In this document: one piece after another, positions 14,658-48,855 of the stretch
Numbering within the stretch: the stretch's first letter is position 1
Layout of the letters: every line of letters starts with the position of its first letter
Assembly: GCF_011044495.1 (NCBI RefSeq)
Contig: NZ_CP049143.1
Location: 186,001-250,000 of the forward strand
DNA: 64,000 nt
Origin: Roseimicrobium sp. ORNL1
Lineage (GTDB): Bacteria; Verrucomicrobiota; Verrucomicrobiia; Verrucomicrobiales; Verrucomicrobiaceae
Direction of reading: 5' to 3'
Notes under the pieces: generated by a model
What the model was told of the DNA's origin: nothing
The model's input: only the letters and a program-made list of their open reading frames with translations
The model's database searches: none
Made by a program: the position numbers and the translations under genes

Positions 14658-14661
14658 GAGA

Positions 14662-14714: not shown

Positions 14715-14801
14715 CGTCAAGGAAAACGCGGAACTCGCCGGGCCGCCTGCGTGGGCGGCTCCGCGAAATGGGAGACTGGTGAAGTCGTTAGGTGCTGAGG
14801 C

Positions 14802-25690: not shown

Positions 25691-25796
25691 GGGGGTGCCG
25701 CAAGACAGCACGGATCCCGATGATGACAACCCTCAAGAAAATGCCGGGCCACACTGTCACCTTGACCTGGGTGGCATCACGATCGATCACAGCCTC

Positions 25797-30934: not shown

Positions 30935-30973
30935 AGAGTTACTTGCCTTGATGCACCGCAAAACCCGCGAAAG

Positions 30974-32847: not shown

Positions 32848-32915
32848 ATGATTTTAGCGAATCCGCCCGGACCGCATTGCCCATACTCCCTCAAGCCTGT
32901 TCCCTGTAGTCCTCT

Positions 32916-33659: not shown

Positions 33660-33727
33660 CCCCAGTGAAGTGACTCGTCGAAAAGACCTTGCCCAATGCT
33701 GAATTTGAGTCCTTGGATGTCCCGCCC

Positions 33728-34729
33728 ATGAGAAAAATATTTGTTACAGGAGTCGCAGGTTTTATCGGCAGCAGTCTGGCGGATCGGTTGCTGGCGGACG
33801 GGTTGCAGGTGGTGGGGTGGGATGATTTCTCTACTGGTCAGGAGCGGTTTCTTGAGGGTGCCCGCAAACATTCGAACTTCGAACTGAAGCGCGGGGACAA
33901 CCTGGACCTGGAGGCACTCACCACCGCGATGCATGGCTGCGATATGGTGGTGCACCTGGCGGCGAATGCGGATGTGCGATTTGGACTGCAACATCCCCGG
34001 AAGGATCTGGAGCAGAATACGATTGCCACCTTCAATGTGCTTGAGGCGATGCGGACGAATGGCATCAAGAAAATCGCGTTCTCGTCCACGGGGTCTGTCT
34101 ACGGTGAGGCGGTGGTGATCCCTACGCCTGAGGACGCAGCGTTTCCTGTGCAAACGTCGCTGTATGGAGCGTCGAAGGTGGCGGGGGAGAACTTGATCCA
34201 GGCGTACTGCGAAGGATTCGGGTTCGAAGGTTACATCTTCCGCTTCGTCTCGATTCTGGGAGAGCGCTACACACACGGGCATGTGTTTGACTTTTACGGC
34301 CAGTTGCTGGACCACCCGGAGAGACTTCGGGTGCTCGGAGATGGCACTCAGCGCAAATCATACCTGCACGTGCAGGACTGCATTGATGCCATCCTTCACG
34401 TGACGCGGGCGGACCTGGCGCAGAACGAGAAGCATCGTGTGTGCGTCTTCAATCTGGGCGCGCCGGAGTACTGCCGGGTGACAGACTCCATCGGATGGAT
34501 TTGCCGGCATTTGGGACTGGAGCCCAAGTTTGAGTTCACGGGCGGCGATCGCGGATGGGTGGGGGACAATCCCTTCATCTTTCTGGATACGGTCAAGATT
34601 CAGGCCACCGGATGGCGCGCGAAGTACACCATCGAGCAGGGCATTGTCTCGACGTTGAAGTGGCTGCAGGCGAATCAGTGGGTGCTGGAAGCGCGCGCCG
34701 TCCATGACGCGAAGGGGGGCAAGGCGTGA
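33728..34729 (+). CDS. NAD-dependent nucleotide-sugar epimerase/dehydratase
   Basis: An extended SDR of about 333 residues. The Rossmann motif is FVTGVAGFIGSSLADRLLAD, the YxxxK catalytic pair is in SLYGASKVAGENLIQAYCEG with Ser/Thr in AFSSTGSVYGEA, and the C-terminal half binds the nucleotide sugar (RVLGDGTQRKSYLHVQDCID). The pattern is that of UDP-glucose or UDP-glucuronate 4-epimerases and related enzymes. In this locus it probably acts on a nucleotide sugar of the glycan. It overlaps the next gene by GTGA. The start MRKIFVTG follows the family; an upstream ATG at 33689 is in frame. Confidence 0.9.
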   Translation: MRKIFVTGVAGFIGSSLADRLLADGLQVVGWDDFSTGQERFLEGARKHSNFELKRGDNLDLEALTTAMHGCDMVVHLAANADVRFGLQHPRKDLEQNTIATFNVLEAMRTNGIKKIAFSSTGSVYGEAVVIPTPEDAAFPVQTSLYGASKVAGENLIQAYCEGFGFEGYIFRFVSILGERYTHGHVFDFYGQLLDHPERLRVLGDGTQRKSYLHVQDCIDAILHVTRADLAQNEKHRVCVFNLGAPEYCRVTDSIGWICRHLGLEPKFEFTGGDRGWVGDNPFIFLDTVKIQATGWRAKYTIEQGIVSTLKWLQANQWVLEARAVHDAKGGKA

Positions 34730-36006
34730 AGATTGCCGTTCTCGGGTTGTGGCATTTGGGAAGTGTCACTGCAGCGTGCTGCGCTGAGCACTTTTCCGTG
34801 ACGGGCCTGGATTTTGATGAGGATCTGATTGCGGGACTGAAGGCGGGCCGTGCTCCCATCATGGAGCCGGGCCTGGACGCCCTTCTGCAGGAAGGTATTC
34901 GCGAGGGGCGGCTTGCATTCACCACGGATGAACGACAGGCCTGCCAGGACGCGGACATCTTGTGGATATGTGATGATACACCCGTGGACGCCGATGACGT
35001 CGCGGATACGCAGTATGTGTTGACGCGTGTGCGGCGTGCCGCACAGCATCTGCCGTCAGGTGCGGTGTTGATCGTGTCCTCACAGATGCCGGTGGGGACA
35101 TGTGGCAAGTTGCAGGAGGAGTTTCCCGAATTGCACGTCGTATGCTGTCCTGAGAACCTGCGTCTGGGAAAGGCGCTGGAGGTATTCCGCAGCCCGGAGA
35201 GAATCGTGCTCGGTGTGCGTGATGCGGAGACAAAGGCGAGACTGGAACCGGTGTTCGGCAAGTGGAGCCAGAACCTTCTATGGATGAGTCCCGAGTCCGC
35301 GGAGATGACGAAGCATGGCATCAATACCTTCCTCGCCATGTCCGTGACGTTCATGAATGAACTCGCGAAGCTGTGCGAAAAGACAGGAGCGAATGCCCGG
35401 GAGGTGGAGCTGGGGCTGAAGAGCGAGAGCCGCATCGGTCCACGCGCTTTCTTGCGCGCCGGTGGAGCCTTCGCCGGCGGCACGCTGGCCCGCGATGTGG
35501 TGGCGCTGACCCGGATCGCCGCAGAGAAATCCGAACCGCTGCGACTCATTCCCTGCATCAAGGAGAGCAACGATCAGCACAAGCTTTGGGCGTTGCAACG
35601 CTTGAAGGAAGAACTGGGTGACTTGAAGGGTAGGCCCGTTGCTATCTTGGGCCTCACGTACAAGCCGGGTACGGACACGCTGAGACGGAGCCTCGCAGTG
35701 GAGCTGTGTCACGCGCTCTTGAATGAAGGTGTGGACGTGCGCGCCTATGACCCTGTCATTCACTCACAACCCGCGGAGATCGGCAGTGCGGTGTGGCATG
35801 CCAGCATGGCAGACGCGGTCGCTGGGACGGATGCTGTCGTGGTCTGCACGGGGTGGCCTGAGATTCGCGATGCGGACTGGGGAATGCTTCTTGGCAAGAT
35901 GCACCGTCCGCTTATTCTCGATGCGGACGGCTTCATCTCATCCCCGCCGAGTGGCGCCAGGCACCTGAGTGTCGGCCGGCCTGCTCAAAGCCCGTCTGTT
36001 CATTGA
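34726..36006 (+). CDS. UDP-glucose/GDP-mannose dehydrogenase family protein lacking the catalytic cysteine
   Basis: The protein has 426 residues in three domains. The N-terminal Rossmann motif is IAVLGLWHLGSVTAACCAE, the central helix has the substrate-side motif TKHGINTFLAMSVTFMNELA, and the C-terminal domain has ILGLTYKPGTDTLRRSLAVE. In the family's active-site loop (GFGGSCFPKD in active enzymes), the sequence here is AFAGGTLARD: the cysteine aligned with the catalytic one is Thr253. Known dehydrogenases need that cysteine for the second oxidation, from aldehyde to acid. The rest of the protein is intact. The function is therefore uncertain: it may stop at the aldehyde, catalyse a different redox step, or be regulatory. 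The start is GTG, overlapping the epimerase stop. Confidence 0.85.
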   Translation: MKIAVLGLWHLGSVTAACCAEHFSVTGLDFDEDLIAGLKAGRAPIMEPGLDALLQEGIREGRLAFTTDERQACQDADILWICDDTPVDADDVADTQYVLTRVRRAAQHLPSGAVLIVSSQMPVGTCGKLQEEFPELHVVCCPENLRLGKALEVFRSPERIVLGVRDAETKARLEPVFGKWSQNLLWMSPESAEMTKHGINTFLAMSVTFMNELAKLCEKTGANAREVELGLKSESRIGPRAFLRAGGAFAGGTLARDVVALTRIAAEKSEPLRLIPCIKESNDQHKLWALQRLKEELGDLKGRPVAILGLTYKPGTDTLRRSLAVELCHALLNEGVDVRAYDPVIHSQPAEIGSAVWHASMADAVAGTDAVVVCTGWPEIRDADWGMLLGKMHRPLILDADGFISSPPSGARHLSVGRPAQSPSVH

Positions 36007-36028
36007 TTTGTAAGAGAAGAGATTTTTC

Positions 36029-36895
36029 ATGAAGCTTCACCAGCAGAACGCAGTCATCACCGGAGGTACGCAGGGGCTTGGTCAGGCCATCGTGCGTGAG
36101 TTTCTTGCAGAGGGAGCGAATGTGCTTCTTTGCTCCCGCAACGGAGCGGAAGCTGCCTCACTCGCCGCAGAATTGAGCAAGGACTTGCCTCCCGGCCAAA
36201 AGGTCGTTGGCGTGGCTGCGGATGTTTCCTCCGAAGAAGAGGTGAAGCACCTGTTTGATACAGCAACCAAGGAATTTGGCGAGCTTCACATCCTGGTGAA
36301 CAACGCGGGCATCTATGGACCCAAGGGTCCTAGCGAAGAAGTGGATTGGGAGGAGTGGAAGCGGGCCATGGAAATCAATCTCTACGGCACCATGCTGCCA
36401 TGCCGTGCGGTCATCCCGCTGTTCAGGGCCTCGGGCCGTGGCAAAATCGTGAATCTCTCCGGGGGTGGTGCGACGAATCCGCTGCCGCGTTTCTCCGCCT
36501 ATGCCGCAAGCAAAGCCGCGGTGGTCCGCCTCACAGAGACCCTGGCTGTGGAACTCGCGCCTGACCACATTGACGTGAATGCAGTTGCTCCCGGTGCGCT
36601 CAACACGCGTCTGCTGGATGAAGTGCTGGAAGCCGGACCGGAGGTGGTGGGAGCCTCATTTTTTGAGAAGGCGCAGCAGCAGGCCCAAAAAGGAGGCGTG
36701 CCACTGGAAAAGGGAGCTCGCCTCTGTGTCTACCTCGCCTCACGCGACAGCGATGGCGTGACGGGCAAGCTGATCAGTGCTCAATGGGATCCGTGGGACA
36801 CCCTGCATGACCGGCTTGGAGAGATTTCAGGCAATGACATCTATACATTGCGGCGCATCGTGCCCGCGGATCGTGGACTTTCCTGGGGCGGCTGA
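36029..36895 (+). CDS. Short-chain dehydrogenase/reductase
   Basis: A 288-residue SDR. The cofactor motif is AVITGGTQGLGQAIVREFLA, the NAG motif is LVNNAGIYGPKGP, and the catalytic Tyr and Lys are in FSAYAASKAAVVRLTETLA. The usual Ser is shifted: the segment IVNLSGGGATNPLPRFSAY has Gly where the Ser is expected and Ser one residue earlier. The C-terminus is longer than in classical SDRs, with WDTLHDRLGEISGNDIYTLR. It sits with a Gfo/Idh oxidoreductase and the heptose genes, so oxidoreduction of a sugar intermediate is plausible but not shown. Confidence 0.88.
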   Translation: MKLHQQNAVITGGTQGLGQAIVREFLAEGANVLLCSRNGAEAASLAAELSKDLPPGQKVVGVAADVSSEEEVKHLFDTATKEFGELHILVNNAGIYGPKGPSEEVDWEEWKRAMEINLYGTMLPCRAVIPLFRASGRGKIVNLSGGGATNPLPRFSAYAASKAAVVRLTETLAVELAPDHIDVNAVAPGALNTRLLDEVLEAGPEVVGASFFEKAQQQAQKGGVPLEKGARLCVYLASRDSDGVTGKLISAQWDPWDTLHDRLGEISGNDIYTLRRIVPADRGLSWGG

Positions 36896-36907
36896 GGAGA
36901 AATGGCG

Positions 36908-37906
36908 ATGAAGAAAGACATTCGATATGCCATCATCGGCTGCGGTTTGATTGGCCGGAAACGCCTGGCTTGCCTGCAGAAAGGCCAGCTCGCCGTGGCG
37001 TGTGACGTGCAGCGTGAGCGTGCCGAGCAACTCGTGGCACAAGCAGGTGCCGGTGTGACGATGACGGACTACCGTGAAGCCGTGACTTCACCCGATGTGG
37101 ATGCGGTGATTGTGTGCACCCTGAATTCCCAACTGGCGCCGATCACACTCGAAGCGATTCGCGCTGGCAAGCATGTGCTTGTGGAGAAACCCGGCGCGAT
37201 TTCACTGCAGGAGATGGATGCGCTCATCGCGGCGCAGAACGAGAAAAAGGTGGCGGTTCGTGTGGGCTTCAATCATCGATACCATCCCGCGCTGCAGCGA
37301 GCCCGGGAGCTGGTGAATGCAGGTGAGTGTGGTCCGCTCATGTTTATTCGCGCCCGTTACGGCCACGGTGGACGAGTGGGCTATGACCGGGAATGGCGTG
37401 CCGATCCGGCACAGTCTGGCGGTGGTGAACTTATCGATCAGGGAGTCCATCTGATCGATCTGTCCCGTTGGTTCCTGGGCGAATTCACCTCCGTGGAAGG
37501 TCATGCCGTCACCAGCTTTTGGGACATGCCCGTAGATGACAATGCGTTCCTCAATCTCCGCACGGAACAAGGACAGACGGCGTTCCTGCATGTGAGCTGC
37601 ACGGAGTGGAAAAATCTCTTCTCCTTCGAGATATACGGACGCAATGCAAAGCTGCACATCGAAGGGCTCGGCGGCTCCTACGGCATGGAGAAGCTGCACT
37701 TCTACAAAATGCTTCCGGAAATGGGGCCTCCCGAAACTACCGCGTGGGAGTATCCGCGGGGGGACCAGTCCTGGGCTATGGAGTTGCGCCTCTTCGAAGA
37801 GGATATCCGCCAGGGCAGAACTCCGGATGCCGGACTCGCGGAAGCCCGCGCCGCCCTGGATGTGGTGAACACAATCTATCGCAAAAGCGGCTATCCCACT
37901 CTCTGA
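36908..37906 (+). CDS. Gfo/Idh/MocA-family oxidoreductase
   Basis: The 332-residue protein has an N-terminal Rossmann domain (YAIIGCGLIGRKRLACLQKG), the characteristic EKP loop in HVLVEKPGAISLQEM, and a C-terminal alpha/beta domain beginning VRVGFNHRYHPALQRARELV, with GGGELIDQGVHLIDLSRWFL at the catalytic site. It is a sugar or sugar-nucleotide oxidoreductase using NAD(P). The start is at the second ATG, because a GAGGAG Shine-Dalgarno sequence at 36894-36899 is 8 bp from it; the first ATG at 36902 is too close. It is co-directional with the heptose genes. Confidence 0.9.
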   Translation: MKKDIRYAIIGCGLIGRKRLACLQKGQLAVACDVQRERAEQLVAQAGAGVTMTDYREAVTSPDVDAVIVCTLNSQLAPITLEAIRAGKHVLVEKPGAISLQEMDALIAAQNEKKVAVRVGFNHRYHPALQRARELVNAGECGPLMFIRARYGHGGRVGYDREWRADPAQSGGGELIDQGVHLIDLSRWFLGEFTSVEGHAVTSFWDMPVDDNAFLNLRTEQGQTAFLHVSCTEWKNLFSFEIYGRNAKLHIEGLGGSYGMEKLHFYKMLPEMGPPETTAWEYPRGDQSWAMELRLFEEDIRQGRTPDAGLAEARAALDVVNTIYRKSGYPTL

Positions 37907-37912
37907 ATTTTC

Positions 37913-38896
37913 ATGATCATCACACGTTCTCCATTGCGCGTATCTCTGGGAGGTGGCGGCACCGATTTGCCCTCCTACTACCGTGAGCATGGCGGCTTCC
38001 TGATTGCCGGAGCGATCGACAAGTATGTCTACATCGCGCTGCACCGTACGTTCGTGCATGATCTCATCATCAAGTACTCCAAGATGGAGCGGGTCACCGA
38101 GGTGGATGCCATTGAGCATCCCATCATTCGCGAGGCGTTCCGGCTTCTTGGTGTGCCTGCAAGCGGGCTCGAGATGGCTTCCATGGCAGATATTCCGGCG
38201 GGTACCGGACTGGGTTCGTCGGGCAGCTTCACCACGGCTCTGCTAAAGGCGTTGCATGCCTATAAGAAGCATCACATCCACCCGCATGATCTGGCCGCAC
38301 AGGCCTGCCACATCGAACTGGAACTCCTGGGCGAGCCCATTGGCAAGCAGGACCAATACATCGCGGCTTTCGGTGGGCTTACCTGTTTTGAGTTCGGGAA
38401 AGATGACAGCGTGAGAGCCTGGCCACTTAAGGTCAGTGAGGAGACGATTTTTAATCTCGAGGACAACCTGCTGCTGTTTTTCACCGGTTACTCAAGGTCG
38501 GCCTCCAGCATTCTCAAGGAGCAGGACGACAAGAGCCGCAAGAGCGATACGGCGATGGTGGACAACCTCCACTTTGTCAAAGACCTCGGGTTCCAGAATC
38601 AGCGTGCTCTGGAAAGCGGGCGGCTTGATGAGTTCGGGCGTCTCATGGACGTGCACTGGAAGCACAAGAAGCAGCGCTCCAGTGGCATGAGCAATCCCCG
38701 GATAGATGCGTGGTATGAGTGCGCCATGAAGAATGGAGCGCTGGGTGGGAAGATCATCGGCGCCGGCGGTGGGGGATTCCTCATGTTCTACGCGGAAGAC
38801 AAGGCGCGGCTGCGTCATGCCCTGCACGAAGAGGGATTGAAGGAGGTGCGCTTCCGTTTTGACTTCGAAGGCACGCGCATGGTGACCCATGACTGA
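37913..38896 (+). CDS. hddA: GHMP kinase, D-glycero-D-manno-heptose 7-phosphate kinase (alpha) type
   Basis: HddA phosphorylates D-glycero-D-manno-heptose 7-phosphate to the alpha-1,7-bisphosphate. The 327-residue protein has the GHMP motifs: LRVSLGGGGTDLPSYYREHG at the N-terminus, the phosphate-binding motif DIPAGTGLGSSGSFTTALLK at about residue 90, and the third motif GKIIGAGGGGFLMFYAEDKA. ILE or HELG-type adjacent helices (HIELELLGEPIGKQDQYIAA) match the family. The genomic neighbours (hddC, gmhA, gmhB) support this specificity over the fucokinase or galactokinase relatives. The stop codon overlaps the start of hddC by eight bases. Confidence 0.93.
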   Translation: MIITRSPLRVSLGGGGTDLPSYYREHGGFLIAGAIDKYVYIALHRTFVHDLIIKYSKMERVTEVDAIEHPIIREAFRLLGVPASGLEMASMADIPAGTGLGSSGSFTTALLKALHAYKKHHIHPHDLAAQACHIELELLGEPIGKQDQYIAAFGGLTCFEFGKDDSVRAWPLKVSEETIFNLEDNLLLFFTGYSRSASSILKEQDDKSRKSDTAMVDNLHFVKDLGFQNQRALESGRLDEFGRLMDVHWKHKKQRSSGMSNPRIDAWYECAMKNGALGGKIIGAGGGGFLMFYAEDKARLRHALHEEGLKEVRFRFDFEGTRMVTHD

Positions 38897-39596
38897 GTTT
38901 CCTCCATCGTTCCCCGTCGCGATTCTCGCGGGGGGATTGGCCACCCGCCTGAAGCCGGTCACGGAGCGCATCCCAAAGGCTCTCGTGGAGGTGGCCGGGC
39001 GGCCGTTCCTGGAGCACCAGATCGAGTTGCTGAAGCGCAATGGGATCACGAAGCTGGTGCTGTGTGTCGGACACCTCGGCCACATGATCCGTGAGATGTA
39101 TGGAGATGGCAGTGGCCTGGGTGTGGAGATCCTTTACAGCGAAGACGGAGACCGGCTCCTGGGAACCGGTGGTGCGCTGCGCAAGGCGCTGCCGCTCCTC
39201 GGTGAATCTTTCTTTGTGCTGTATGGAGACTCTTACCTCCCCATTCCTTATCAGCCGGTGGCACAGGCCTTCATCAACTCAGGCAAGGAAGGTCTCATGA
39301 CGGTGTATCAAAACGAAGGCCAGTGGGACACCAGCAATGTGATTTATGCGGATGACCACATCGTGCTCTACGACAAGCACACGCGGGATCCGCGGATGCG
39401 GCACATCGACTATGGATTGAGTGTACTCTCTGCTCGTGCCGTAAGCCGGTTGCCGGAGAATGAACCCTCGGATCTCGCGAATTTACTGATCGAGCTGGTT
39501 GCTAAAAATGAACTGGCCGGATATGAAGTGACACAGCGGTTCTACGAAATCGGTTCCCATGCAGGGCTGGCCGAGTTGAACGCATTGCTGAGCTGA
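38889..39596 (+). CDS. hddC: D-glycero-alpha-D-manno-heptose 1-phosphate guanylyltransferase-type nucleotidyltransferase
   Basis: HddC uses GTP to activate D-glycero-alpha-D-manno-heptose 1-phosphate. The 235-residue protein has the nucleotidyltransferase signature FPVAILAGGLATRLKPVTER with IPKALVEVAGRPFLEHQIEL, GTGGALRKALPLLGESFFVL, and the metal-binding VLYGDSYLPIPYQPVAQAF. Its size, context between hddA and gmhA, and overall pattern favour the heptose enzyme; closely related families include glucose 1-phosphate and mannose 1-phosphate nucleotidyltransferases, so nucleotide and sugar specificity need test. Confidence 0.85.
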   Translation: MTEFPPSFPVAILAGGLATRLKPVTERIPKALVEVAGRPFLEHQIELLKRNGITKLVLCVGHLGHMIREMYGDGSGLGVEILYSEDGDRLLGTGGALRKALPLLGESFFVLYGDSYLPIPYQPVAQAFINSGKEGLMTVYQNEGQWDTSNVIYADDHIVLYDKHTRDPRMRHIDYGLSVLSARAVSRLPENEPSDLANLLIELVAKNELAGYEVTQRFYEIGSHAGLAELNALLS

Positions 39597-39617
39597 GCAT
39601 CGACAGCTTTTTTCTCC

Positions 39618-40217
39618 ATGAGCACCTACGCCGAACAGCACCTCCGCGAAACCCAGGAAATCATCTCACGTCTCCAGCCTGAAGTACTCGAGGATGTCGT
39701 GGACAAGCTGGCGGCATTGCGCGCCAGAAATGGAAGACTCTTCATCCTGGGAGTCGGCGGCAGCGCGGCGAATGCATCGCATGCGGTGAATGACTTCCGC
39801 AAGATCACGGGCATGGAATGCTATGCTCCCACAGACAATGTTTCTGAGCTCACGGCGCGCACCAATGATGAAGGCTGGGCGACCGTGTTCTCCACGTGGC
39901 TGCAAGGCAGCAGGCTGAACAGCAATGATGGTCTGCTGGTATTCTCCGTGGGAGGCGGCAATCTGGAAAAGAATGTGAGTCCCAATCTGGTCGAGGCGCT
40001 CAAGGTCGCGCAGCAGGTGGGGGCGATGGTCTTGGGCATTGTCGGCCGGGACGGTGGCTACACCGCTCAGGTGGCGGACGCATGTGTCATCGTGCCCACG
40101 GTGAATCCAGAAAATGTGACTCCGCATTCGGAGGCGTTTCAGGCGGTTTTGTGGCATCTTTTTGTCTCCCATCCCAAACTGAAATCTGCGCAGACGAAAT
40201 GGGAGAGCACCAAGTAG
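39618..40217 (+). CDS. gmhA: Phosphoheptose isomerase (SIS domain)
   Basis: GmhA converts sedoheptulose 7-phosphate to D-glycero-D-manno-heptose 7-phosphate. The 199-residue protein consists of one SIS domain: LFILGVGGSAANASHAVNDF at about residues 41-60, then DGLLVFSVGGGNLEKNVSPN (sugar-phosphate loop), and SEAFQAVLWHLFVSHP with the C-terminal His. The motif HAVNDFRK is like that of the capsule-type isomerases I remember from Campylobacter, and differs from the HFAEELTG of the lipopolysaccharide enzyme. The start has an unusual T-rich leader (ttttttctcc). The gene overlaps gmhB by 19 bases. Confidence 0.9.
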   Translation: MSTYAEQHLRETQEIISRLQPEVLEDVVDKLAALRARNGRLFILGVGGSAANASHAVNDFRKITGMECYAPTDNVSELTARTNDEGWATVFSTWLQGSRLNSNDGLLVFSVGGGNLEKNVSPNLVEALKVAQQVGAMVLGIVGRDGGYTAQVADACVIVPTVNPENVTPHSEAFQAVLWHLFVSHPKLKSAQTKWESTK

Positions 40218-40765
40218 CGGAATCGGCGCCACACCGGGCTGTGTTCCTGGACCGCGACGGCGTGCTGAACCGCTCGCTGATGCGCAACGGCAGGCCCCAT
40301 CCACCGGACACGGTGGAGGAATTCGAGCTGCTGCCCGGGGTTGCGGAGGCGTGCGCCCTGCTGAAGGATGCAGGGTTCCTGCTGGTGGTGGTGACCAACC
40401 AGCCGGATGTAGGTCGCGGAACGCAATCGCTTGAGGTCGTGGAAGCCATGCACCGGAAGTTGGAGAGTCTTCTTCCTCTCGATAGGATCGAGACTTGCTA
40501 CGATCCGGGAGGTGCACCTTCCGAAAGGCGCAAGCCCGCGCCCGGTATGCTTCTGTCCGCCAGTCGGGAACTAAACATTAATCTTAGAGAATCTTACCTC
40601 GTCGGGGACCGCTGGCGCGATATTGATGCGGGCGCGGCGGCCGGGTGCGCGGCCACGTTTTTCATTGATTATGGCTATGAAGAGGAACTTAGGACCTTGC
40701 CCGACTATAAGGTTGCCAGCCTGCTGCAAGCAGCCAAGATGATCGTGAATATTGAAGAGGCATAA
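40199..40765 (+). CDS. gmhB: HAD phosphatase, heptose 1,7-bisphosphate phosphatase-like, without the zinc loop
   Basis: GmhB removes the 7-phosphate of heptose 1,7-bisphosphate. The 188-residue protein has HAD-IIIA motifs: AVFLDRDGVLNRSLM (nucleophile Asp), FLLVVVTNQPDVGRGTQS (motif II Thr), RRKPAPGMLLSASREL (motif III Lys), and YLVGDRWRDIDAGAAAGC (motif IV). The loop before motif III is short: CYDPGGAPSERRKPAPGM has one Cys, whereas the Escherichia coli protein has a four-ligand zinc site there. The start codon overlaps the end of gmhA. Confidence 0.88.
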   Translation: MGEHQVAESAPHRAVFLDRDGVLNRSLMRNGRPHPPDTVEEFELLPGVAEACALLKDAGFLLVVVTNQPDVGRGTQSLEVVEAMHRKLESLLPLDRIETCYDPGGAPSERRKPAPGMLLSASRELNINLRESYLVGDRWRDIDAGAAAGCAATFFIDYGYEEELRTLPDYKVASLLQAAKMIVNIEEA

Positions 40766-40788
40766 CTCAATCGCCCCTTACTCCCCGC

Positions 40789-41508
40789 ATGACCGACTTG
40801 AACAATCTCCGGGTGAAAATATACGCGGATGGCGCTGATGTGGCAGGCATGCTGAGGCTGAACGCCGATCCTCTCATCAAAGGAATGACCACCAATCCCA
40901 CCTTGATGAACAAGGCAGGTATCCGGGATTATTCAGCCTTTGCAGAGGAGGTGCTTCAGACCATCCGTGAGAAGCCCATCTCCTTTGAAGTGTTCTCAGA
41001 CGACTTTCCCTCGATGAGGCGTGAGGCCCTGAAGATTCACCGCTGGCAGGAGAATGTTTATGTGAAGATTCCCGTGACCAACTCGCACGGTGACTCGTCC
41101 ATTCCTCTGGTGCGGGAGCTGGCCCAGGAGGGCGTGAAGTTGAACGTCACCGCTCTGTTGAGCTTGTCCCAGGTGGAGAAGGTCGTCGAGGCATTGCACC
41201 CTGAGACCGCCTCGGTGGTTTCCGTCTTTGCCGGCCGCATTGCTGACACCGGGCGAGATCCCGTTCCCATCATGCAGGAAAGCCTGAAGATGATGGCCAA
41301 CCTGCCCCGCGCCGAGTTGCTGTGGGCCAGTGTCCGGGAAGTACTGAACATCTGGCAGGCGGATGCGAGCGGCTGTGGCATCGTCACGGTGCAGCATGAC
41401 ATCCTGGCGAAGGCGCTGAAACTTTGCGCCATGGATTTGGAAGCGCTTTCCCTGGACACCGTGAAAATGTTCCGGAACGACGCCGTGTCCGCTGGATTTG
41501 TTCTTTAA
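40789..41508 (+). CDS. tal: Small transaldolase-family enzyme (MipB/TalC size)
   Basis: The 239-residue protein is a transaldolase of the short type. Its N-terminus KIYADGADVAGMLRLNADPL and GMTTNPTLMNKAGIRDYSAF match, and the Schiff-base Lys is in ENVYVKIPVTNSHGDSS (about residue 90). It also shows LNVTALLSLSQVEKVVEALH and WASVREVLNIWQADASGCG. Transaldolase interconverts fructose 6-phosphate plus erythrose 4-phosphate with sedoheptulose 7-phosphate plus glyceraldehyde 3-phosphate. Its place directly after the heptose genes suggests supply of sedoheptulose 7-phosphate to GmhA; some relatives instead act on fructose 6-phosphate and other aldehydes. Confidence 0.9.
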   Translation: MTDLNNLRVKIYADGADVAGMLRLNADPLIKGMTTNPTLMNKAGIRDYSAFAEEVLQTIREKPISFEVFSDDFPSMRREALKIHRWQENVYVKIPVTNSHGDSSIPLVRELAQEGVKLNVTALLSLSQVEKVVEALHPETASVVSVFAGRIADTGRDPVPIMQESLKMMANLPRAELLWASVREVLNIWQADASGCGIVTVQHDILAKALKLCAMDLEALSLDTVKMFRNDAVSAGFVL

Positions 41509-41602: not shown

Positions 41603-42793
41603 GTGAACATTCTTTTTGCCAACTACGGCCAGTCTGACAACAACAGCGCATATCATATCGCCGGTTTTGCGGGCGGTCTGGCAGCACGTGGGCATGATGT
41701 TTGTGTGGCAGTAGCGAAGTCCGTCCCCGACGGGAAGTTTGAGTCCGTGGACGGGTTCCGCATGGCATCACATCGCACGGCCCTGAAGACGGGCGTATCC
41801 TTTGCAGATGGCCGCCCTGCAGATGTGCTGCACGTGTGGACCCCGCGGGAGACCATGAGGCAGTTCGCCATGTCGCACGCCGCGGCATGGGGGCATGCCG
41901 CACTGCTGGTGCATCTGGAGGACAACGAGGAGGCCATCTTTGAGAGATTTACCGGCTGCTCGCTGGAGAAGGCCTGCACCTTGGATCAGCCCTGGCCCAA
42001 GGGATTGATTCATCCCGTGCATTTCAAGCCGTTCCTTCAGTCGGCGAAGGGCGTCACCATGGTGCACCGGTGCCTGGAGCCGCTGGTGCCGGTGGGTCTT
42101 CCCCGGCAGGAGATCGTGCCGGTGATGAACTTCCGTTTCTTTGCGAGTGGACCGCAGAATCAAAACCTTCGTAGCGAGTTGGGCCTTGCCCCCACCACGC
42201 GTGTCGTGGTCTTCAATGGCAATGATCATGCGGCGGCCGCCATGGATATCCGCCAGCTTTATGAAGCGGTGGACACCTTGATTGAGAGGGGCATGGATGT
42301 TGCATTCGTGCGGACGGGACATGTTCTTCCAGCCAACTACGATGGGCTGCACTTCCGTCCGGGGCATCGCTGCATCGAGCTGGGTTATGTCGAGCGAAGC
42401 AGCATTCCCGACATCATGCGGCTCGCTGATGTGGTGGTCCAACCTGGAGATGGCGACTACTTCAACGCGCACCGCCTTCCTGCCAAGGTCCCGGAATACC
42501 TCACCATGGGCAAACCTCTCATCATGGGCGAGACAAACATCGGTCGTGAACTCGCCATGGCAGATGCGGCACTGGTACTCCCAGGGATGTCACCTGCGCA
42601 CATGGCGGAGGCCATCGCCAGCCTGCTGAATGCGCCTGATGAAGCCGCGGCCATGGCAGCGCGAGGCCGCGAGTTTGCCCGGAGCCGGTTCTCGGGTGAG
42701 GTGGTCATCCCTCTGCTGGAATCTTTTTATCGCAGTTGTATTCCGGCGGCCGTGTCACGGCCACCGGCCAAGTCCTGCGAACTCCGCCACTGA
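41603..42793 (+). CDS. Family 1/4 (GT-B) glycosyltransferase
   Basis: A 396-residue GT-B fold enzyme. The start is GTG, and the frame begins NILFANYGQSDNNSAYHIAG. It has the two Rossmann-like halves: VHLEDNEEAIFERFTGCSLE and VVVFNGNDHAAAAMDIRQLY, then LGYVERSSIPDIMRLADVVV and the nucleotide-sugar-binding loop GDGDYFNAHRLPAKVPEYLT in place of the EAFG-type loop. Donor and acceptor are unknown. It follows the heptose operon after a gap of 94 bp and precedes the tandem fusion proteins. Confidence 0.87.
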   Translation: MNILFANYGQSDNNSAYHIAGFAGGLAARGHDVCVAVAKSVPDGKFESVDGFRMASHRTALKTGVSFADGRPADVLHVWTPRETMRQFAMSHAAAWGHAALLVHLEDNEEAIFERFTGCSLEKACTLDQPWPKGLIHPVHFKPFLQSAKGVTMVHRCLEPLVPVGLPRQEIVPVMNFRFFASGPQNQNLRSELGLAPTTRVVVFNGNDHAAAAMDIRQLYEAVDTLIERGMDVAFVRTGHVLPANYDGLHFRPGHRCIELGYVERSSIPDIMRLADVVVQPGDGDYFNAHRLPAKVPEYLTMGKPLIMGETNIGRELAMADAALVLPGMSPAHMAEAIASLLNAPDEAAAMAARGREFARSRFSGEVVIPLLESFYRSCIPAAVSRPPAKSCELRH

Positions 42794-42856: not shown

Positions 42857-45076
42857 ATGTCCCGGCCTCGCTTCAGTGTTCTAGTGCCCACGCGCAATGC
42901 GGAGGGCACTTTGGGAGCCACGTTACGCACCTGTTTGGAGCAGGAGTTCGACGATTATGAGATCGTTGTTTCCGACAACAGCTCCACGAAAGCAACCGAG
43001 GAACTGATCGCCAGCATTCACTCGCCCAGGATTCGGAGGCTACGCCCGGAGAAGACGCTCGCCATGCAGGAGAACTGGGAGTTCGCCGTGGCGCACAGCC
43101 AGGGGGAGTATATTTTGGTGCTGGGCAGTGATGATGGTCTCCTGCTCCATTCCCTCAAGGAACTGGATCGGCTGCTGCGCATGCTGGACACCAAGCTCCT
43201 GCGCTGGGATCCGGTATGCTACAACTGGCCCAACATGCCTGTGCAGGCGCATGCTGTTTCCAATACGCTGCTGCTGCCTCTCAAGCAGGAGGACTACTAT
43301 CATCCCATCCACTGGAGGGACTCGCGGCACATGATCCTGGAAGTGGTGCGCGGTCGGCGCAGCTATGCAGAGCTGCCCTCGGTCTACCAGTCCGCCGTGC
43401 ACCGCAGCCTGCTTGAGACATTGAAGCAGCGCACCGGAAGGGTGTTCCACGGTGATTGTCCGGATGTGTACAGCGGCTTTGCGCTGGCCCATCTGACGAA
43501 GCGCTACTGCTCGCTGGATGCACCCCTGTCCATCAGCGGACTTTCCGGCGCGAGCAATGGCGTGGCCACGATTTTTTTGAAGGACCGCTCACCTGTCGCC
43601 GAGGACTTCAAAACACTGAACCAAAGCTGTGCTGGCCGCCATTGGCCGTCGTGGATTCCGGAGCTGTCCTTGCTTACCACGTGCACGGCTCATTCCTTCC
43701 AATGTGCCAGGGAGGCGCTGTTCCCAGATGATGCGGAACTCGTGGTGGATCGCCGTCAACTCACCCGCAGTGTGATGAGCGAGTACCACTCTGCGGACGA
43801 GCAGGAGTGGCAGAAGTTGCGGGATACCGTGCGCAGCACCCTGGTTGATGATCGTGCGCTCCTTGAATGGTTCGATGCGGAGTATGGCGGCAAATCACTG
43901 GCCACCTGTCCTCCAGCGGTCGCGCCCAAGTTGAAGAAGTATGGCGGGCCGTACATGCAACTCGATGCTGCGGAGTTCGGAGTGACGGATGTCTGGGAAG
44001 CGGCGCTCCTCTGCGAAAAACTGCTGGGTTACAAGCGGGATGGACTGAATGCACACCTGCAGCGTCCCCATGACATGTCCCACACGCCGTCGATGGCGGC
44101 GAGCAATGGCCATGGTGCGCTTGCAGAAAAGACGGCCGCCCCGCGTGAAGGTCTCTACCAGCAGGAGACCGAGGTGGCCATGCTGAAGATCCTGGCGGGC
44201 AAGGTAAAGAGGAAGACTTTTCTGGATGTGGGCGCGGAGAAAGGGTCGTTCGCCAGGGAGTTGATGGCGCTGGGATTTTCGGGCGTGTTGTTTGAGCCCT
44301 TTGCCGAGCATCTGCCAGCGCTGAACAAACTGGTGGAAGGCACCGGTTCACGAGTGCTGTCCTGTGCCGTGGATGCAACAGATCACGAGGGGCGGCTGCA
44401 CATCGCCAAGGATGAAGAAGGCCGGCCGCTGGAGTATTTTCATTCGCTGCAGGCAGCGCCCTCGGCAACGAACTTTCAGCATGATGAAGAAGGCGTGCCG
44501 GTGGCGTGCCGTTCTCTGGACAGCCTCGCCAGGGAAGGCGCGATAGAGGCGCGAGTGGGCATCCTCAAGGTCGATACCGAGGGCAACGATCTGCGTGTGC
44601 TGGAAGGGATGGGGCCGGTGAGAGCGGAGGTCCTGATGTGTGAGTTTGTAACGCCCCGTTTGTATCCAGACTGGATTTGCTCGTTCCCGGAAGGCTTGAT
44701 GGCAGCGGCCAAGGCGATGGGCTATGAGCACTGCCTCGCGGTAAGCCGCTTTGATGAGCACGAAATCGTGGAGGTGGATCCCATCCATTTTGTGGACGGA
44801 GAGTGGGGTAATCTCATCTTCACGTCGAAGGAACTACTGGACGCCGCGTACGGCGAGATGGGGGGGCTTAAGCAGCATGTTCATCGCAGGCACGTGGAGG
44901 CCTGCATGAAGGATCACCAGATGCTTCTGGAAAAGGAGGCAAGAATCCAGGAGCAGGCGGTGGTGTGTCTGGACCAGCAAAGGCGCCTCGACGAACGGAG
45001 AACCAAGATCGAGGAGCTAAAGGAAAAAGTGTCCGTGCTGAGGGAGAAAAACGAGAAACTCCGAGCGCGACACTGA
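42857..45076 (+). CDS. GT2-FkbM methyltransferase fusion with C-terminal coiled coil (copy 1)
   Basis: The 739-residue protein has three parts. Residues 1-220 or so are a GT2 domain: FSVLVPTRNAEGTLGATLRT, then IVVSDNSSTKATEELI, with the acidic pair in ILVLGSDDGLLLHSLKEL. Residues 220-430 continue with a helical region of unclear function. Residues 432-680 are an FkbM-type methyltransferase: FLDVGAEKGSFARELMALGF, GILKVDTEGNDLRVLEGMG, and LMCEFVTPRLYPDWICSFPE. The last 50 residues are charged and heptad-like (EELKEKVSVLREKNEKLRAR). The gene is one of two tandem copies. A glycosyl transfer followed by O-methylation by the same protein is a reasonable inference. I chose the ATG at 42857; a GTG at 42794 is in frame. 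Confidence 0.85.
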   Translation: MSRPRFSVLVPTRNAEGTLGATLRTCLEQEFDDYEIVVSDNSSTKATEELIASIHSPRIRRLRPEKTLAMQENWEFAVAHSQGEYILVLGSDDGLLLHSLKELDRLLRMLDTKLLRWDPVCYNWPNMPVQAHAVSNTLLLPLKQEDYYHPIHWRDSRHMILEVVRGRRSYAELPSVYQSAVHRSLLETLKQRTGRVFHGDCPDVYSGFALAHLTKRYCSLDAPLSISGLSGASNGVATIFLKDRSPVAEDFKTLNQSCAGRHWPSWIPELSLLTTCTAHSFQCAREALFPDDAELVVDRRQLTRSVMSEYHSADEQEWQKLRDTVRSTLVDDRALLEWFDAEYGGKSLATCPPAVAPKLKKYGGPYMQLDAAEFGVTDVWEAALLCEKLLGYKRDGLNAHLQRPHDMSHTPSMAASNGHGALAEKTAAPREGLYQQETEVAMLKILAGKVKRKTFLDVGAEKGSFARELMALGFSGVLFEPFAEHLPALNKLVEGTGSRVLSCAVDATDHEGRLHIAKDEEGRPLEYFHSLQAAPSATNFQHDEEGVPVACRSLDSLAREGAIEARVGILKVDTEGNDLRVLEGMGPVRAEVLMCEFVTPRLYPDWICSFPEGLMAAAKAMGYEHCLAVSRFDEHEIVEVDPIHFVDGEWGNLIFTSKELLDAAYGEMGGLKQHVHRRHVEACMKDHQMLLEKEARIQEQAVVCLDQQRRLDERRTKIEELKEKVSVLREKNEKLRARH

Positions 45077-45185
45077 TGATGAAATTCGCCGGGGTGTTTC
45101 CAGCGGAGTGAACTTCATGTTTGCGGACCTGCCCACATCACGTATCTGAACTTCGAGTTACGTATTTCCAAAAGATCCGCCGCAC

Positions 45186-47504
45186 ATGAGCCGACCGCGT
45201 TTCAGCGTGGTGATTCCCACACGCAATGCTGAGAAGACCCTGAAGGCCACGCTGCGCACCTGTGTGGAACAGGAGTTTGAGGATTACGAGATTGTCGTTT
45301 CGGACAACAGTTCCACTCCGGCCACAGAGGCATTGCTCGCAGACATGGGTTCGCCCAGGATCCGGCGGGTGCGTCCAGAGAGGACCCTGCCCATGCAGGA
45401 GAACTGGGAGTTCGCCGTGGAGCAGGCGCAGGGCGAATACATCCTGGTGGTGGGCAGTGACGATGGCCTCCTGCCGCATGCACTGAAGGAACTGGATCGG
45501 ATCCTGCGCATGCTGAACGTGAAGCTGCTGCGCTGGACTCAAGTGTGCTACAACTGGCCGGACATGCCGGTGCAGGAGCAGCTTGCTCCCAACACGCTGC
45601 TGCTGCCGCTCAAGCAGACTCATTTTTACCATCCCATCCGCTGGCAAGACTCGCGGCACATGATGCTGGAGGTGGTGAATGGCGCAGTTAATTATGCTGA
45701 GCTTCCCATGGTGTATGCGTCCGCAGTGCATCGTGATTTGTTCGCGGCCTTGAGACGGAGTACCGGAAGGGTCTTCCACAGTGATTGTCCGGATATCTAC
45801 AGCGGCTTTGCCCTCGCCCACTTGTTGAAGCGTTATTGCACGCTGGATGCACCGATATCCATCAGCGGCCTTTCCGGGGTGAGCAATGGTGTGGCCACGA
45901 TATTTTTGAAGGAGCGCTCGCCCATTGCAGAGGACTTCAAGAAACTGAACCTGCAACAACGTTCTGGCAGGGATTGGCCGGAGTGGATTCCGGATGTGCC
46001 ATTGCTTTCCACCTGTACCGCCCATTCCTTTCAATGTGCCAGGGCGGCGCTCTTTCCTGATGACACGGAGCTCGTGGTGGATCGCCGGCATCTCACGCGT
46101 GCGGTGATGAGTGAGTACCGCTCTGAAGACGAGCCGGAGTGGCAGAGGCTGCGGGATCGTGTGCGCCGCACTTTGATGGATGATCTTGCGCTTCTGGAGT
46201 GGTTCGATGCGGAGTATGGTGACAAGTCGCTGGCCACATGCCCTCCGGCGCCGGTGCCCCAGATGAGGCGTTATGGCGGGCCCTACATGCAGCTTGATGC
46301 CGCGGAGTTTGGTGTGGCGGACGTGTGGGGAGCGGCTTTGCTGTGTGAAAAGCTGCTGGGTTACAAACGGGATGGGCTCAACGCGCACCTGCAGCCTGGA
46401 CAGTCAGCATTGACGGCGGCTGGCAGCACAGTTCCCCACGAATCTGCATCTACCACCGTGATGGCTGCACCGCGCGACGGTCTCTACCAGCAGGAGACCG
46501 AGGTGGCCGTGCTGAAGATCCTGGCGGGCAAGGTGAAGAGGAAGACCTTTCTGGATGTGGGCGCGGAGAAGGGGTCGTTCGCCAGGGAGTTGATGGTGCT
46601 GGGATTTTCGGGCGTGTTGTTTGAGCCCTTTACCGGGCATCTGCCAGCACTGAATAAACTGGTGGAAGGCACCGATTCACGGGTGCTTTCCTGTGCCGTG
46701 GATGCGACGGACCACGAGGGACGGCTGCACATCGCCAAGGATGAAGAGGGCCAGCCGCTGGAGTATTTCCATTCGCTGCAGGCGGCACCCTCAGCGACGA
46801 ACTTCCGGCATGATGCAGAGGGTGTGCCAGTGGCGTGCCGCTCCCTGGAGAGCCTCGCCAGGGAAGGCACGATAGAAGCGCAAGTGGGCATCCTCAAGGT
46901 CGATACCGAGGGCAACGACCTGCGTGTGCTGGAAGGGATGGGGCCGGTGAGAGCGGAGGTCTTGATGTGTGAGTTTGTAACGCCCCGTTTGTATCCGGAC
47001 TGGATATGCTCGTTCCCGGAAGGCTTGATGGCAGCAGCCAAGGCGATGGGCTATGGGCATTGCCTGGCAGTGAGCCGCTTTGATGAACACGAGATCGTGG
47101 AGGTGGATCCGGTCCACTTTGTGGACGGAGAGTGGGGCAACCTCATCTTCACTTCCAAAGGGCTTCTCGACGATGCTCGCGCTGAACTGGACGCTCTTCG
47201 CGCAAAGGTGCAGGCCCAGCACGTGCGGACCTGTCTGAAAGGACACCGGGAGCTCCTTGAGAAGGAGGCTATGATCCAGCAGCAGGCCGTTCAACTGTTG
47301 GAAAAGGAAGCGATGATCCAGCAGCAGGCGCGTACTGGTGAGGCGATGCGTACGATACTCGATAAGAACGCATCCAATGTTCAAGCGCTTCAGAACAAGA
47401 TCACCGCGCTCAAAGAGAAGGTGGAGGGCCTCAAAGGAAAGCTGGAAGAGCAGAAGGAAAAGAACCTCAAGCTACGCGGGCGTTCCAAGCAGGTGAGCTC
47501 TTGA
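45186..47504 (+). CDS. GT2-FkbM methyltransferase fusion with C-terminal coiled coil (copy 2)
   Basis: The 772-residue protein is a paralogue of the preceding gene with the same order of parts. GT2 begins FSVVIPTRNAEKTLKATLRT and the acidic pair is in ILVVGSDDGLLPHALKELDR. The FkbM domain (432-680 approximately) differs from copy 1 at only about 15 positions (visual count), whereas the GT2 half differs much more. The C-terminal coiled coil is longer, with the 14-residue block LLEKEAMIQQQAVQ repeated twice in tandem. The start ATG lies 109 bp after copy 1, with no clear hairpin terminator between, so they could be co-transcribed. Confidence 0.85.
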   Translation: MSRPRFSVVIPTRNAEKTLKATLRTCVEQEFEDYEIVVSDNSSTPATEALLADMGSPRIRRVRPERTLPMQENWEFAVEQAQGEYILVVGSDDGLLPHALKELDRILRMLNVKLLRWTQVCYNWPDMPVQEQLAPNTLLLPLKQTHFYHPIRWQDSRHMMLEVVNGAVNYAELPMVYASAVHRDLFAALRRSTGRVFHSDCPDIYSGFALAHLLKRYCTLDAPISISGLSGVSNGVATIFLKERSPIAEDFKKLNLQQRSGRDWPEWIPDVPLLSTCTAHSFQCARAALFPDDTELVVDRRHLTRAVMSEYRSEDEPEWQRLRDRVRRTLMDDLALLEWFDAEYGDKSLATCPPAPVPQMRRYGGPYMQLDAAEFGVADVWGAALLCEKLLGYKRDGLNAHLQPGQSALTAAGSTVPHESASTTVMAAPRDGLYQQETEVAVLKILAGKVKRKTFLDVGAEKGSFARELMVLGFSGVLFEPFTGHLPALNKLVEGTDSRVLSCAVDATDHEGRLHIAKDEEGQPLEYFHSLQAAPSATNFRHDAEGVPVACRSLESLAREGTIEAQVGILKVDTEGNDLRVLEGMGPVRAEVLMCEFVTPRLYPDWICSFPEGLMAAAKAMGYGHCLAVSRFDEHEIVEVDPVHFVDGEWGNLIFTSKGLLDDARAELDALRAKVQAQHVRTCLKGHRELLEKEAMIQQQAVQLLEKEAMIQQQARTGEAMRTILDKNASNVQALQNKITALKEKVEGLKGKLEEQKEKNLKLRGRSKQVSS

Positions 47505-47526: not shown

Positions 47527-48855
47527 TCACCAGCGGATGCCCCACCGCAGGAGACGGTCGCACCACGCGGCATTCGCCTGGAAAAGCACGACGTGGTGGC
47601 CGAGCCGTTCCTCACTGAAGGAGGCACCCAGTTCACGCAAACGCAGCCTCGCCATTTCCGCAAAGCCCGTGGTGGTAATTTCCGCGCTGGACTTCTGAAG
47701 GTCATGCACGCGGAAGCAGCCAAGGAACCACGGAAGGCGCTTGATGTTTGCGCCAGCCTTCTGGAAGCGGAGCAGCAGATCCCAGTCGAAGGCGAACTTG
47801 AAGCTCTCATCGAGATGGCCCCCGCACTTTTCCCACAGGCTGCGCCGCCAGAAGAGTGTTTCCTGGGGGATGTAGTCACCCCATAGTAACATCTCGCCAT
47901 TGTGGCGCGGCAGCACCCAGCGGCCCACCTGCCAGTCCTGTTCGTTGATGATGAGACGGTGACCGTAGACGGCATCCACCTCGGGGTGGGTGGCGAAATA
48001 GTGCGCCACATAGTGCAGGGTTCCCGGAGTGATCAGGTCATCCGAGTTCAGCCACGCCATGATCTCGCCGTTGGAGCGTGCAAACCCCTTGTTGATGGCA
48101 TTGGCGGGACCGGTGTCGCGTTCACTTCCCCAAGAGGTCAGCTTTTCGGCATGCTTCTGGATGATGTCCGCTGAGCCATCCGTGCTGCCTCCATCCCAGA
48201 CATGATAATCAAGCCGGGGGTAGCCTTGACCCAGGATGCTGGACAGGGTCCGCGGAAGAAACGACGCCTGCTGATAGGATGGCGTCACGATGCTGATCAG
48301 CGGCCACGACTCCTGAGGTCCGGGTGGCGATACCTTGGGGAGACGGTCCAGGTCGAGAGGTTTGGGATCATGCTGGCGTAGCACGCCCAGGCGCATTTGC
48401 GTCCTCCACACCTTGTCCTTCAGGCGCATGAATTTGGTGACCCGGCTGGGATCCTCCAGGACCGGGGCCACGATGCATCCACGACGGGTGAGACCACGGT
48501 GGATGACCTCCTCGTAGGAACGGAGGTCGGAGCGCATCAAGCGGTAGCGTGTCTCCCAGTTCCAGGCCTCATGTCTGTCATGCCGCGCTTGTACCTTCGT
48601 CTGCTTGAGTTCGCGTTTGAGCTGGACGACGCGTTTGCGGAGTTCCTTGTGGCGGACATTCCGCTTCTCCGTCGTCTCTTTGATGCGCTGCATCAGTTCC
48701 GTCTGCTGCGCGGCATGGGTTTGCAGGGCCTGGAGTTCGATCGGGCTCAGCGAAGCGGCGCTGCTGTTGCCATTGTCATGCCCATTGGCGCCGTTGCTCC
48801 GACTGGCGGCGCGTCGCAGCAGCCACCGTGCAAGGAGATCATCAAGGCGTGCCAT
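47527..48855 (-). CDS. Family 2 glycosyltransferase with N-terminal coiled-coil
   Basis: The 442-residue protein starts with a basic, glutamine- and lysine-rich helical stretch of about 100 residues (HAAQQTELMQRIKETTEKRN and similar) that is predicted coiled coil. The GT2 domain follows at about residue 185: LISIVTPSYQQASFLPRTLS, then HVWDGGSTDGSADIIQKHAE, and the acceptor side GEIMAWLNSDDLITPGTLHY with the SDD metal site. It ends CFRVHDLQKSS-type then a helical tail. Similar N-terminal coils may tether it to other components. It is convergent with the tandem fusions (22-bp gap) and is part of the cluster at its right end. Confidence 0.87.
   Translation of the reverse strand: MARLDDLLARWLLRRAASRSNGANGHDNGNSSAASLSPIELQALQTHAAQQTELMQRIKETTEKRNVRHKELRKRVVQLKRELKQTKVQARHDRHEAWNWETRYRLMRSDLRSYEEVIHRGLTRRGCIVAPVLEDPSRVTKFMRLKDKVWRTQMRLGVLRQHDPKPLDLDRLPKVSPPGPQESWPLISIVTPSYQQASFLPRTLSSILGQGYPRLDYHVWDGGSTDGSADIIQKHAEKLTSWGSERDTGPANAINKGFARSNGEIMAWLNSDDLITPGTLHYVAHYFATHPEVDAVYGHRLIINEQDWQVGRWVLPRHNGEMLLWGDYIPQETLFWRRSLWEKCGGHLDESFKFAFDWDLLLRFQKAGANIKRLPWFLGCFRVHDLQKSSAEITTTGFAEMARLRLRELGASFSEERLGHHVVLFQANAAWCDRLLRWGIRW

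Follow-up and report, generated by a model that had tools for sequence, protein, structure and literature searches.

Gene conversion is usually illustrated by rRNA, tuf, PKS/NRPS and surface-antigen genes. In PKS/NRPS clusters, according to PMC4256081 (Medema et al. 2014), internal recombination homogenises some domains and not others, and larger sequence differences reduce recombination. Prokaryotic paralogues within a species can also be more alike than orthologues between species, a state that is long-lasting in the cases covered by PMC6053082. Among polysaccharide enzymes, WbdD and ORF6-O7 each combine a methyltransferase with a coil in one chain, ORF6-O7 carrying GT2 modules as well (PMC11231755). 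Within the part of the literature that was searched, no report joined FkbM with gene conversion, coiled-coil glycosyltransferases or fused glycosyltransferases.

The locus described here lies in a 64-kb stretch of DNA (the window) and contains two head-to-tail neighbouring genes, A and B, whose history is best read as closest in kind to the domain-specific concerted evolution of polyketide synthases. Like the PKS/NRPS systems of PMC4256081, A and B are duplicated multi-domain biosynthetic enzymes with selective domain homogenisation; unlike them, they are two separate tandem GT2-FkbM genes of a glycan locus with no assembly-line modules, and the mosaic splits one domain. They share with the cases of PMC6053082 a greater similarity of paralogues within a species than of orthologues between species, although those cases concern important-pathway genes over very long times, whereas here part of a gene is affected, in one genus and at a glycan locus. 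Compared with WbdD and ORF6-O7 as described in PMC11231755, A and B have an FkbM-type methyltransferase, the GT2 part placed before it, a short coil, no kinase domain found by Pfam and no exporter in the window.

Results

The tandem gene pair and its locus

The pair, its parts and the neighbouring genes are as follows (columns refer to the A/B alignment; primes denote the genes of the sister genome G001).

42857..45076, + strand: copy A, a GT2-linker-FkbM-coil protein of 739 aa; orthologue A' at L041:7632-9833 in the sister genome
42857..44059, + strand: GT2 half of A, GT-A fold (columns 1-402), by PF00535, structure model and PDB matches
44147..44821, + strand: FkbM module of A, the recently homogenised tract (columns 432-656), with 0.919-0.923 nucleotide identity to B and pS 0.257
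44822..45073, + strand: coil-like tail of A, nearest to A' (67%) and unhomogenised with B (40%), by identity and heptad scan
45186..47504, + strand: copy B, a GT2-linker-FkbM-coil protein of 772 aa; orthologue B' at L041:9924-12185
45186..46391, + strand: GT2 half of B, by PF00535
46476..47150, + strand: FkbM module of B, the recently homogenised tract, by identity to A and segment scan
47151..47501, + strand: coil-like tail of B, best match B' (44%; A 40%), by identity and heptad scan
43535..44803, + strand: wider tract in A, GT2 back half plus FkbM (columns 227-650, approximate ends), by change-point and bootstrap
45864..47132, + strand: counterpart of the wider tract in B (columns 227-650), by change-point
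33689..41508, + strand: nucleotide-sugar genes resembling a GDP-heptose route, by Pfam and NCBIfam; not found at the syntenic place in the sister
41603..42793, + strand: group-1 (PF13692) glycosyltransferase directly upstream of A, by Pfam; conserved in the sister
47527..48855, - strand: convergent neighbour, a protein with a coil-like N-terminus and GT2, by Pfam and heptad scan; sister orthologue 83% identical in amino acids

We placed the start of A at the ATG at 42857, which is equivalent to the ATG start of A' in the alignment; the enclosing open frame opens at a GTG at 42794. The stop of B ends at 47504. Pfam identified GT2 (PF00535) and FkbM (PF05050) domains in both proteins, PF05050 scoring 47.0 and 41.4 bits (cut-off 22.7) and TIGR01444 58.9 and 55.0 bits (cut-off 37.7). 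The C-terminal tails, of about 80-115 aa, are coil-like according to a crude heptad scan that is indicative at best, as it also flags a stretch within the GT half of B'. A genome search for a third copy of the FkbM family that could have acted as donor returned two matches, A and B themselves, and a coil search with the tail of B returned A, B and one weak match (E 0.39), with no others.

The nucleotide-sugar genes at 33689-41508 comprise an epimerase/dehydratase, an NDP-sugar dehydrogenase, an SDR, Gfo/Idh, an HddA-like kinase, an NTP transferase, GmhA-like and GmhB-like proteins and a transaldolase. Specific NCBIfam matches were mostly below their cut-offs, those above being the transaldolase and the nucleotide-sugar dehydrogenase. 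At the syntenic place in G001, the one place searched there, these heptose-like genes are absent while A' and B' persist; A and B therefore need not be heptose enzymes. From folds and neighbours, both are predicted to be surface-glycan enzymes, and their FkbM modules putative SAM-dependent O-methyltransferases of the FkbM family.

Divergence along the two proteins

Identity between A and B differed strongly from part to part. It was 0.774 in nucleotides and 0.773 in amino acids over GT2 (401 codons; pS 0.517), 0.919 and 0.943 over FkbM (227 codons; pS 0.257), and 0.560 and 0.444 over the tail (81 codons; pS 0.735). The preliminary description had estimated FkbM identity at about 93% by eye, close to the measured 94.3% in amino acids, and its observation that GT2 is far more divergent in both protein and DNA is borne out by these values, as is its expectation that synonymous divergence would not be uniform along the length. 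Synonymous-codon identity was 179/294 in GT2 and 165/207 in FkbM (Fisher p = 6.5e-6).

A scan that took no account of domains placed the best high-identity segment at columns 433-656, i.e., the FkbM module, with an LLR of 65.8, whereas 100 codon permutations gave at most 12.6. Change-point analysis of A/B identity gave levels of 0.774 (columns 1-405), 0.383 (406-431), 0.923 (432-656) and 0.563 (657-773). In a Sawyer-type runs test on 281 silent polymorphic codons, the sum of squares for A-B was reached in 22 of 10,000 permutations and the longest run in 338 of 10,000; the sums of squares for A-A' (101/10,000) and A'-B' (399/10,000) point to some clustering in those pairs too. Inside FkbM, pS is as low as 0.10-0.14 for the windows that begin at columns 441, 461, 561 and 581. 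Separate sub-tracts were not significant (runs 2604/10,000; CUSUM 708/5000), and we claim none.

Sister genome and quartet analysis

Relatives of the pair were sought in 57 genomes, the organism's own included, of which G001 was the sole other one labelled as the same genus; the comparison covers one sister genome and one genome per species, and no polymorphic tract was seen among them. G001 contains a full-length syntenic pair, A' and B', with flanks conserved on both sides. Counted from its ATG, B' has an uninterrupted frame of 753 codons; a TAA flagged within the B' match appears to result from the match of B overrunning the end of B'. The tail of A is 67% identical to that of A' versus 40% to that of B, the tail of B is 44% identical to that of B' versus 40% to that of A, and one tail segment is common to B and B' and absent from A and A'.

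Quartet-informative sites, given as AB|A'B' / AA'|BB' / AB'|BA', were 80/8/9 for FkbM (amino acids 20/0/0), grouping A with B; 10/22/8 for the tail (amino acids 2/7/0), favouring orthology; and 66/41/20 for GT2. In AU tests, orthology was rejected for FkbM (p 9e-5 for nucleotides, 1.3e-5 for amino acids), and again when the outgroup G628 was added (6e-6). For the tail, nucleotides rejected AB|A'B' (0.028) and retained orthology (0.978), and the protein test left AB|A'B' at p 0.127, not excluded, on a signal of 81 codons. Orthology was likewise rejected by nucleotides for GT codons 201-402 (2.7e-4), where the protein test gave it p 0.114, not excluded; for GT codons 1-200 the nucleotide values were 0.93 versus 0.078, neither topology being rejected. 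The order of the genes, their synteny and the tails favouring orthology indicate that the A/B pair is most likely older than the split of the two species. Homogenisation of FkbM most likely followed that split, in the lineage of the window. The preliminary description had proposed comparing the copies in sister strains, and it is A' and B' in G001 that place the event after the split.

Rooting was performed with the FkbM of G628, which at 55% identity was the nearest outside FkbM found. The rooted AU values for FkbM were 0.68 for a separate A'-B' clade, in which both species have been converted, and 0.35 for a tree with B as donor; these values do not separate conversion in both species from conversion in the window's species alone.

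Extent of the homogenised tract

We defined the A-B excess as A-B identity minus the identity averaged over the four cross-species pairs, with bootstrap intervals. It was 0.009 [-0.022, 0.039] for GT codons 1-200, 0.106 [0.072, 0.138] for GT 201-402, 0.186 [0.154, 0.218] for FkbM and -0.012 [-0.064, 0.038] for the tail. Change-points of the excess fell at columns 227 and 650 (levels 0.010 / 0.152 / -0.009), and the first 200-226 codons of GT2 have no excess A-B similarity. Homogenisation thus spans about columns 227-650; it takes in the second half of GT2 and reaches its peak in FkbM. The methyltransferase half had been described as the homogenised one: this holds insofar as FkbM groups A with B, but the tract is not confined to that half, since it includes GT2 from about codon 227. 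As homogenisation is weaker there, the GT2 part of the tract is presumably older than the FkbM part.

In the sister, the A'-B' excess was 0.051 [0.020, 0.083] for FkbM, 0.030 [-0.000, 0.062] for GT 1-200 and not significant for GT 201-402, and a change-point run on this pair returned no separate segment. Between A and B, FkbM has 11 identity runs of at least 20 nt and GT2 has two, the tail having none; the A'-B' pair has four such runs in GT2 and two in FkbM.

Synonymous control and dating

Across the four cross-species pairs, pS was 0.68-0.70 for FkbM versus 0.61-0.67 for GT2. Synonymous sites of FkbM are therefore not slower between species, and the low A-B value does not come from constraint. 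In A and B, the GT2 and FkbM halves have similar GC3 (0.71-0.74). The sister has somewhat lower values for FkbM, 0.63 and 0.67, than for GT2, 0.72 and 0.71, the FkbM values in the window being 0.71 and 0.74.

At 0.32, the A-B dS of FkbM is exceeded by 20 of 21 orthologous gene pairs picked by hand from the vicinity of the locus (median dS 0.80). The one pair below it is the gene at 13632-14801 (ketol-acid reductoisomerase by Pfam; dS 0.28). These 21 were chosen from 43 rows. Excluded were 16 rows that are probably shadow frames (overlapping or on the opposite strand), the two rows of A and B themselves, the non-orthologous rows 30935 and 36014, and rows 24221 (dS 3.02) and 15491 (dS 0.61, apparently coding); the statement would hold with 24221 or 15491 added. 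Glycan genes at the locus have a raised between-species dS of 1.2-1.5, and sequence imported from other lineages could obscure dating there.

The GT2 half

Between A and B, GT2 has a dN/dS of about 0.17 and FkbM one of about 0.08, so that both are under purifying selection, with no sign of positive selection in GT2 at this level. The preliminary view of a diversifying GT2 half consequently finds no backing here, the more so as GT2 from about codon 227 has also been homogenised, less strongly. In 46 GT columns at least 70% of 19 aligned rows agree, and A and B disagree at just one of these, by the conservative change V10I. D92 and D93, part of a DxD-like motif in A (G90-S-D-D-G94), and D203 are kept in both copies; D203 is a putative catalytic base, by analogy with TarP and RmlT. 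The suggestion that each copy transfers a different sugar is accordingly unsupported. The conserved columns neither prove nor exclude a change of specificity, for which the unconverted front of GT would be the place to look. That A and B methylate in the same way is plausible from their 94% amino acid identity.

A model of the GT half built from 19 rows has a GT-A fold (pLDDT 87.8, pTM 0.89); a whole-protein model from four sequences was discarded (pLDDT 37, pTM 0.24). PDB matches of the GT half model were CgT (5hea), K4CP, TarS, TarP, RmlT and WrtF, which resemble the predicted fold with Z of about 17-21 and rmsd of 2.6-5.8 Å over 213-307 residues. They differ in sequence (14-20% identity), and A and B add a helical C-terminal part and the FkbM fusion. 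Of two scans of genome contigs for relatives, one matched none and the other yielded five loci, each matched in the GT half only. The nearest extra-genus relative of the GT half found, a GT2 protein of Variovorax sp. 770b2 (L051), groups in a clade with 97/97 support, is 39% identical in the best segment and has a coil-like tail by eye; unlike A and B, it has no FkbM domain in a Pfam scan. Scans of seven of the 15 aligned GT-half relatives detected FkbM in none of the seven. Among the relatives seen, the GT2-FkbM fusion thus appears particular to this genus pair.

The FkbM-coil module in other genomes

At E 0.01, a profile of the A/B FkbM hit no sequence in the PDB. This FkbM seems to have few close relatives: with up to 7 candidates scored per genome, they turned up in at least 3 of 386 other genomes of a phylum sample (E 1e-12) and at least 4 of 383 genomes of a class sample (E 1e-15), two samples that overlap (G392 is in both) and in neither of which G001 was matched, presumably because it was not drawn. 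The three strongest outside matches all have coil-like tails and other architectures: FkbM-FkbM-coil in G628 (L075:7185-8906, the second FkbM by BLAST only) and in G244 (L057:6283-7854), and FkbM-coil-GT2 in one chain in G392 (L056:7581-9896). In other lineages the same parts occur fused (G392) or doubled (G628, G244).

The GT2 part of the G392 fusion shares 52% identity over 297 aa with the protein encoded at 47527-48855. As G392 fuses an A/B-like FkbM and coil to that GT2, this suggests that A and B may work together with the 47527-48855 protein.

Discussion

We consider it highly probable that A and B are old tandem paralogues, formed before the species split, with later partial gene conversion over an internal tract. 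At the DNA level, FkbM and GT 201-402 are more alike between A and B than between either copy and its orthologue, the tail favours orthology and GT 1-200 is neutral; synonymous divergence in the tract is low without constraint (0.257 versus 0.68-0.70). This is the pattern of concerted evolution. The process would be RecA-type non-reciprocal recombination between direct repeats about 2.3 kb apart. Tracts would fall mostly in FkbM, where most of the long uninterrupted identity sits, and stop close to the linker and coil, which align poorly. Because each event would restore identity, FkbM would be kept homogeneous while the GT2 front and the coils drift, and positive selection would be unnecessary for the pattern. 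The self-renewing part of this mechanism is visible in the window's species alone, as the long runs of the sister are mainly in GT2. From folds and neighbours, each protein may add one sugar and O-methylate that sugar or an adjacent one in a polysaccharide, and the coil would serve assembly with partner enzymes.

A young duplication of the age of FkbM, followed in one copy by the import of a diverged GT2 half and tail from a different strain or species, would likewise yield a low dS in FkbM and a high dS elsewhere, and the raised dS of the glycan locus is a sign of exchange or fast evolution. However, the sister has the same ordered pair at the same place, its tails favour orthology and B and B' have a segment in common, which makes the pair old; moreover, the GT2 parts of A and B are mutual closest relatives (significantly so on DNA from codon 201), rather than A or B being closest to an outside donor. 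A' and B' largely refute this history, which we regard as very unlikely. Stronger purifying and codon-usage selection on FkbM than on GT2, with no recombination at all, agrees with FkbM being the more constrained by dN in all six pairwise comparisons, but the A-B pS of FkbM is half that of GT2, yet between species FkbM has the higher range, and the two halves of A and B have similar GC3; constraint as the sole cause is refuted by the synonymous control between species and extremely improbable. Partial conversion might instead be maintained by selection, if A and B need the same methyltransferase surface, for example for a common partner or acceptor, and conversion restores the match. The strongest tract is indeed the module that recurs with varied partners in G628, G244 and G392, and the sister has some A'-B' excess in FkbM. 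On the other hand, the wider tract disregards the domain border, local sequence identity alone could set the positions of tracts, and the sister excess is small and lacks a change-point, the rooted AU values being 0.68 versus 0.35; we rate maintenance by selection as rather unlikely.

With respect to function, A and B could be coil-bearing chain-terminating (capping) enzymes like WbdD or ORF6 of K. pneumoniae O7, with the coil as a ruler of glycan length. Catalytic heads followed by a coil fit this, FkbM-coil-GT2 in G392 recalls the MT-coil-GT2-GT2 order of ORF6-O7 given in PMC11231755, and in both G392 and G244 the FkbM gene has putative ABC polysaccharide exporter genes (by eye) nearby. Yet there is no exporter in the window: Wzt_C matches of the genome lie at 6.00 Mb (over the cut-off) and 5.17 Mb (below it), and 0 of 10 genome ABC2_membrane matches fall within the window, so that no Wzm/Wzt pair is linked to A and B. 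In addition, 11 kb around the nearest FkbM relative, in G628, hold no glycan or exporter genes by eye, the tail is short (~80-115 aa by a crude coil scan), Pfam finds no kinase domain in A or B, and their methyltransferase is of FkbM type, for which we claim no kinship to that of WbdD. A capping role is, on these grounds, distinctly unlikely. A more elaborate idea, speculative and quite improbable, treats FkbM-coil as an exchangeable cassette within a glycan-capping complex docked by coils. A, B and the 47527-48855 protein would then assemble through their coils; conversion would keep FkbM alike because the two copies have to match one partner or one chain end, and the GT2 fronts and coils could specialise freely.

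Returning to partial gene conversion between old paralogues, the within-genome gene copying at A/B is clear and of an ordinary kind, domain-selective concerted evolution being already known. The pair adds to the usual examples a clean two-species case: in a two-headed glycan enzyme, a single catalytic module has been homogenised and its flanks have stayed distinct. Domain trees of tandem glycan enzymes can therefore mislead the transfer of function. The distant G392 fusion, in turn, points to a testable partner, the neighbouring GT2, for an uncharacterised FkbM enzyme.

Differences and possible exchange around the glycan locus

The following stretches were compared between the window and its congeneric sister genome (locus L041):
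28139-41508, window: nucleotide-sugar/heptose-like block
L041:2472-6222, sister: counterpart stretch
25593-27749 and 41603-42793, window: glycan-locus orthologues with raised dS, three pairs
L041:12255-16817, sister: NRPS-like protein, 1520 aa

The nucleotide-sugar/heptose-like block was not found at the syntenic place in the sister, which there encodes instead, as judged by eye, a GT2-like protein and a large membrane-like protein. Flanked by conserved sequence on both sides, the two stretches look like a glycan cassette that has been swapped. The three orthologue pairs have window-to-sister dS values of 1.2–1.5, against a median of 0.80 across 21 hand-picked orthologue pairs, which suggests that the glycan locus has undergone exchange or evolves faster.

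In A' and B', the sister's counterparts of the tandem GT2-linker-FkbM-coil genes A and B, identity is 82% over codons 1–124 and 70% over codons 125–402. The front codons are possibly a separate conversion tract in the sister; setting A'–B' against cross-species identity revealed no change-point for codons 1–124. Between B' and the sister's coil-GT2 orthologue lies the NRPS-like gene, whose product resembles, by eye, a nonribosomal peptide synthetase; the gap between B and the coil-GT2 gene of the window is too small for such a gene.

Related genes in other genomes

Two further genes, both on the reverse strand, were considered:
L056:7581-9896, reverse, distant relative G392: FkbM-coil-GT2 protein
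47527-48855, reverse, window: separate coil-GT2 gene

The G392 protein is a single 771-aa chain in which an FkbM resembling that of A/B is joined to a coil and a GT2; its GT2 is 52% identical to that of the window's coil-GT2 gene. This fusion hints at a partnership between the A/B-like FkbM and the coil-GT2 neighbour, parts that are separate in the window.

Adjoining relatives of the A/B GT half also occur in other genomes of the family (loci L016, L017 and L045), with several consecutive genes in G012 and G018, for example. Tandem expansion of A/B-type GTs may thus be common within the family.
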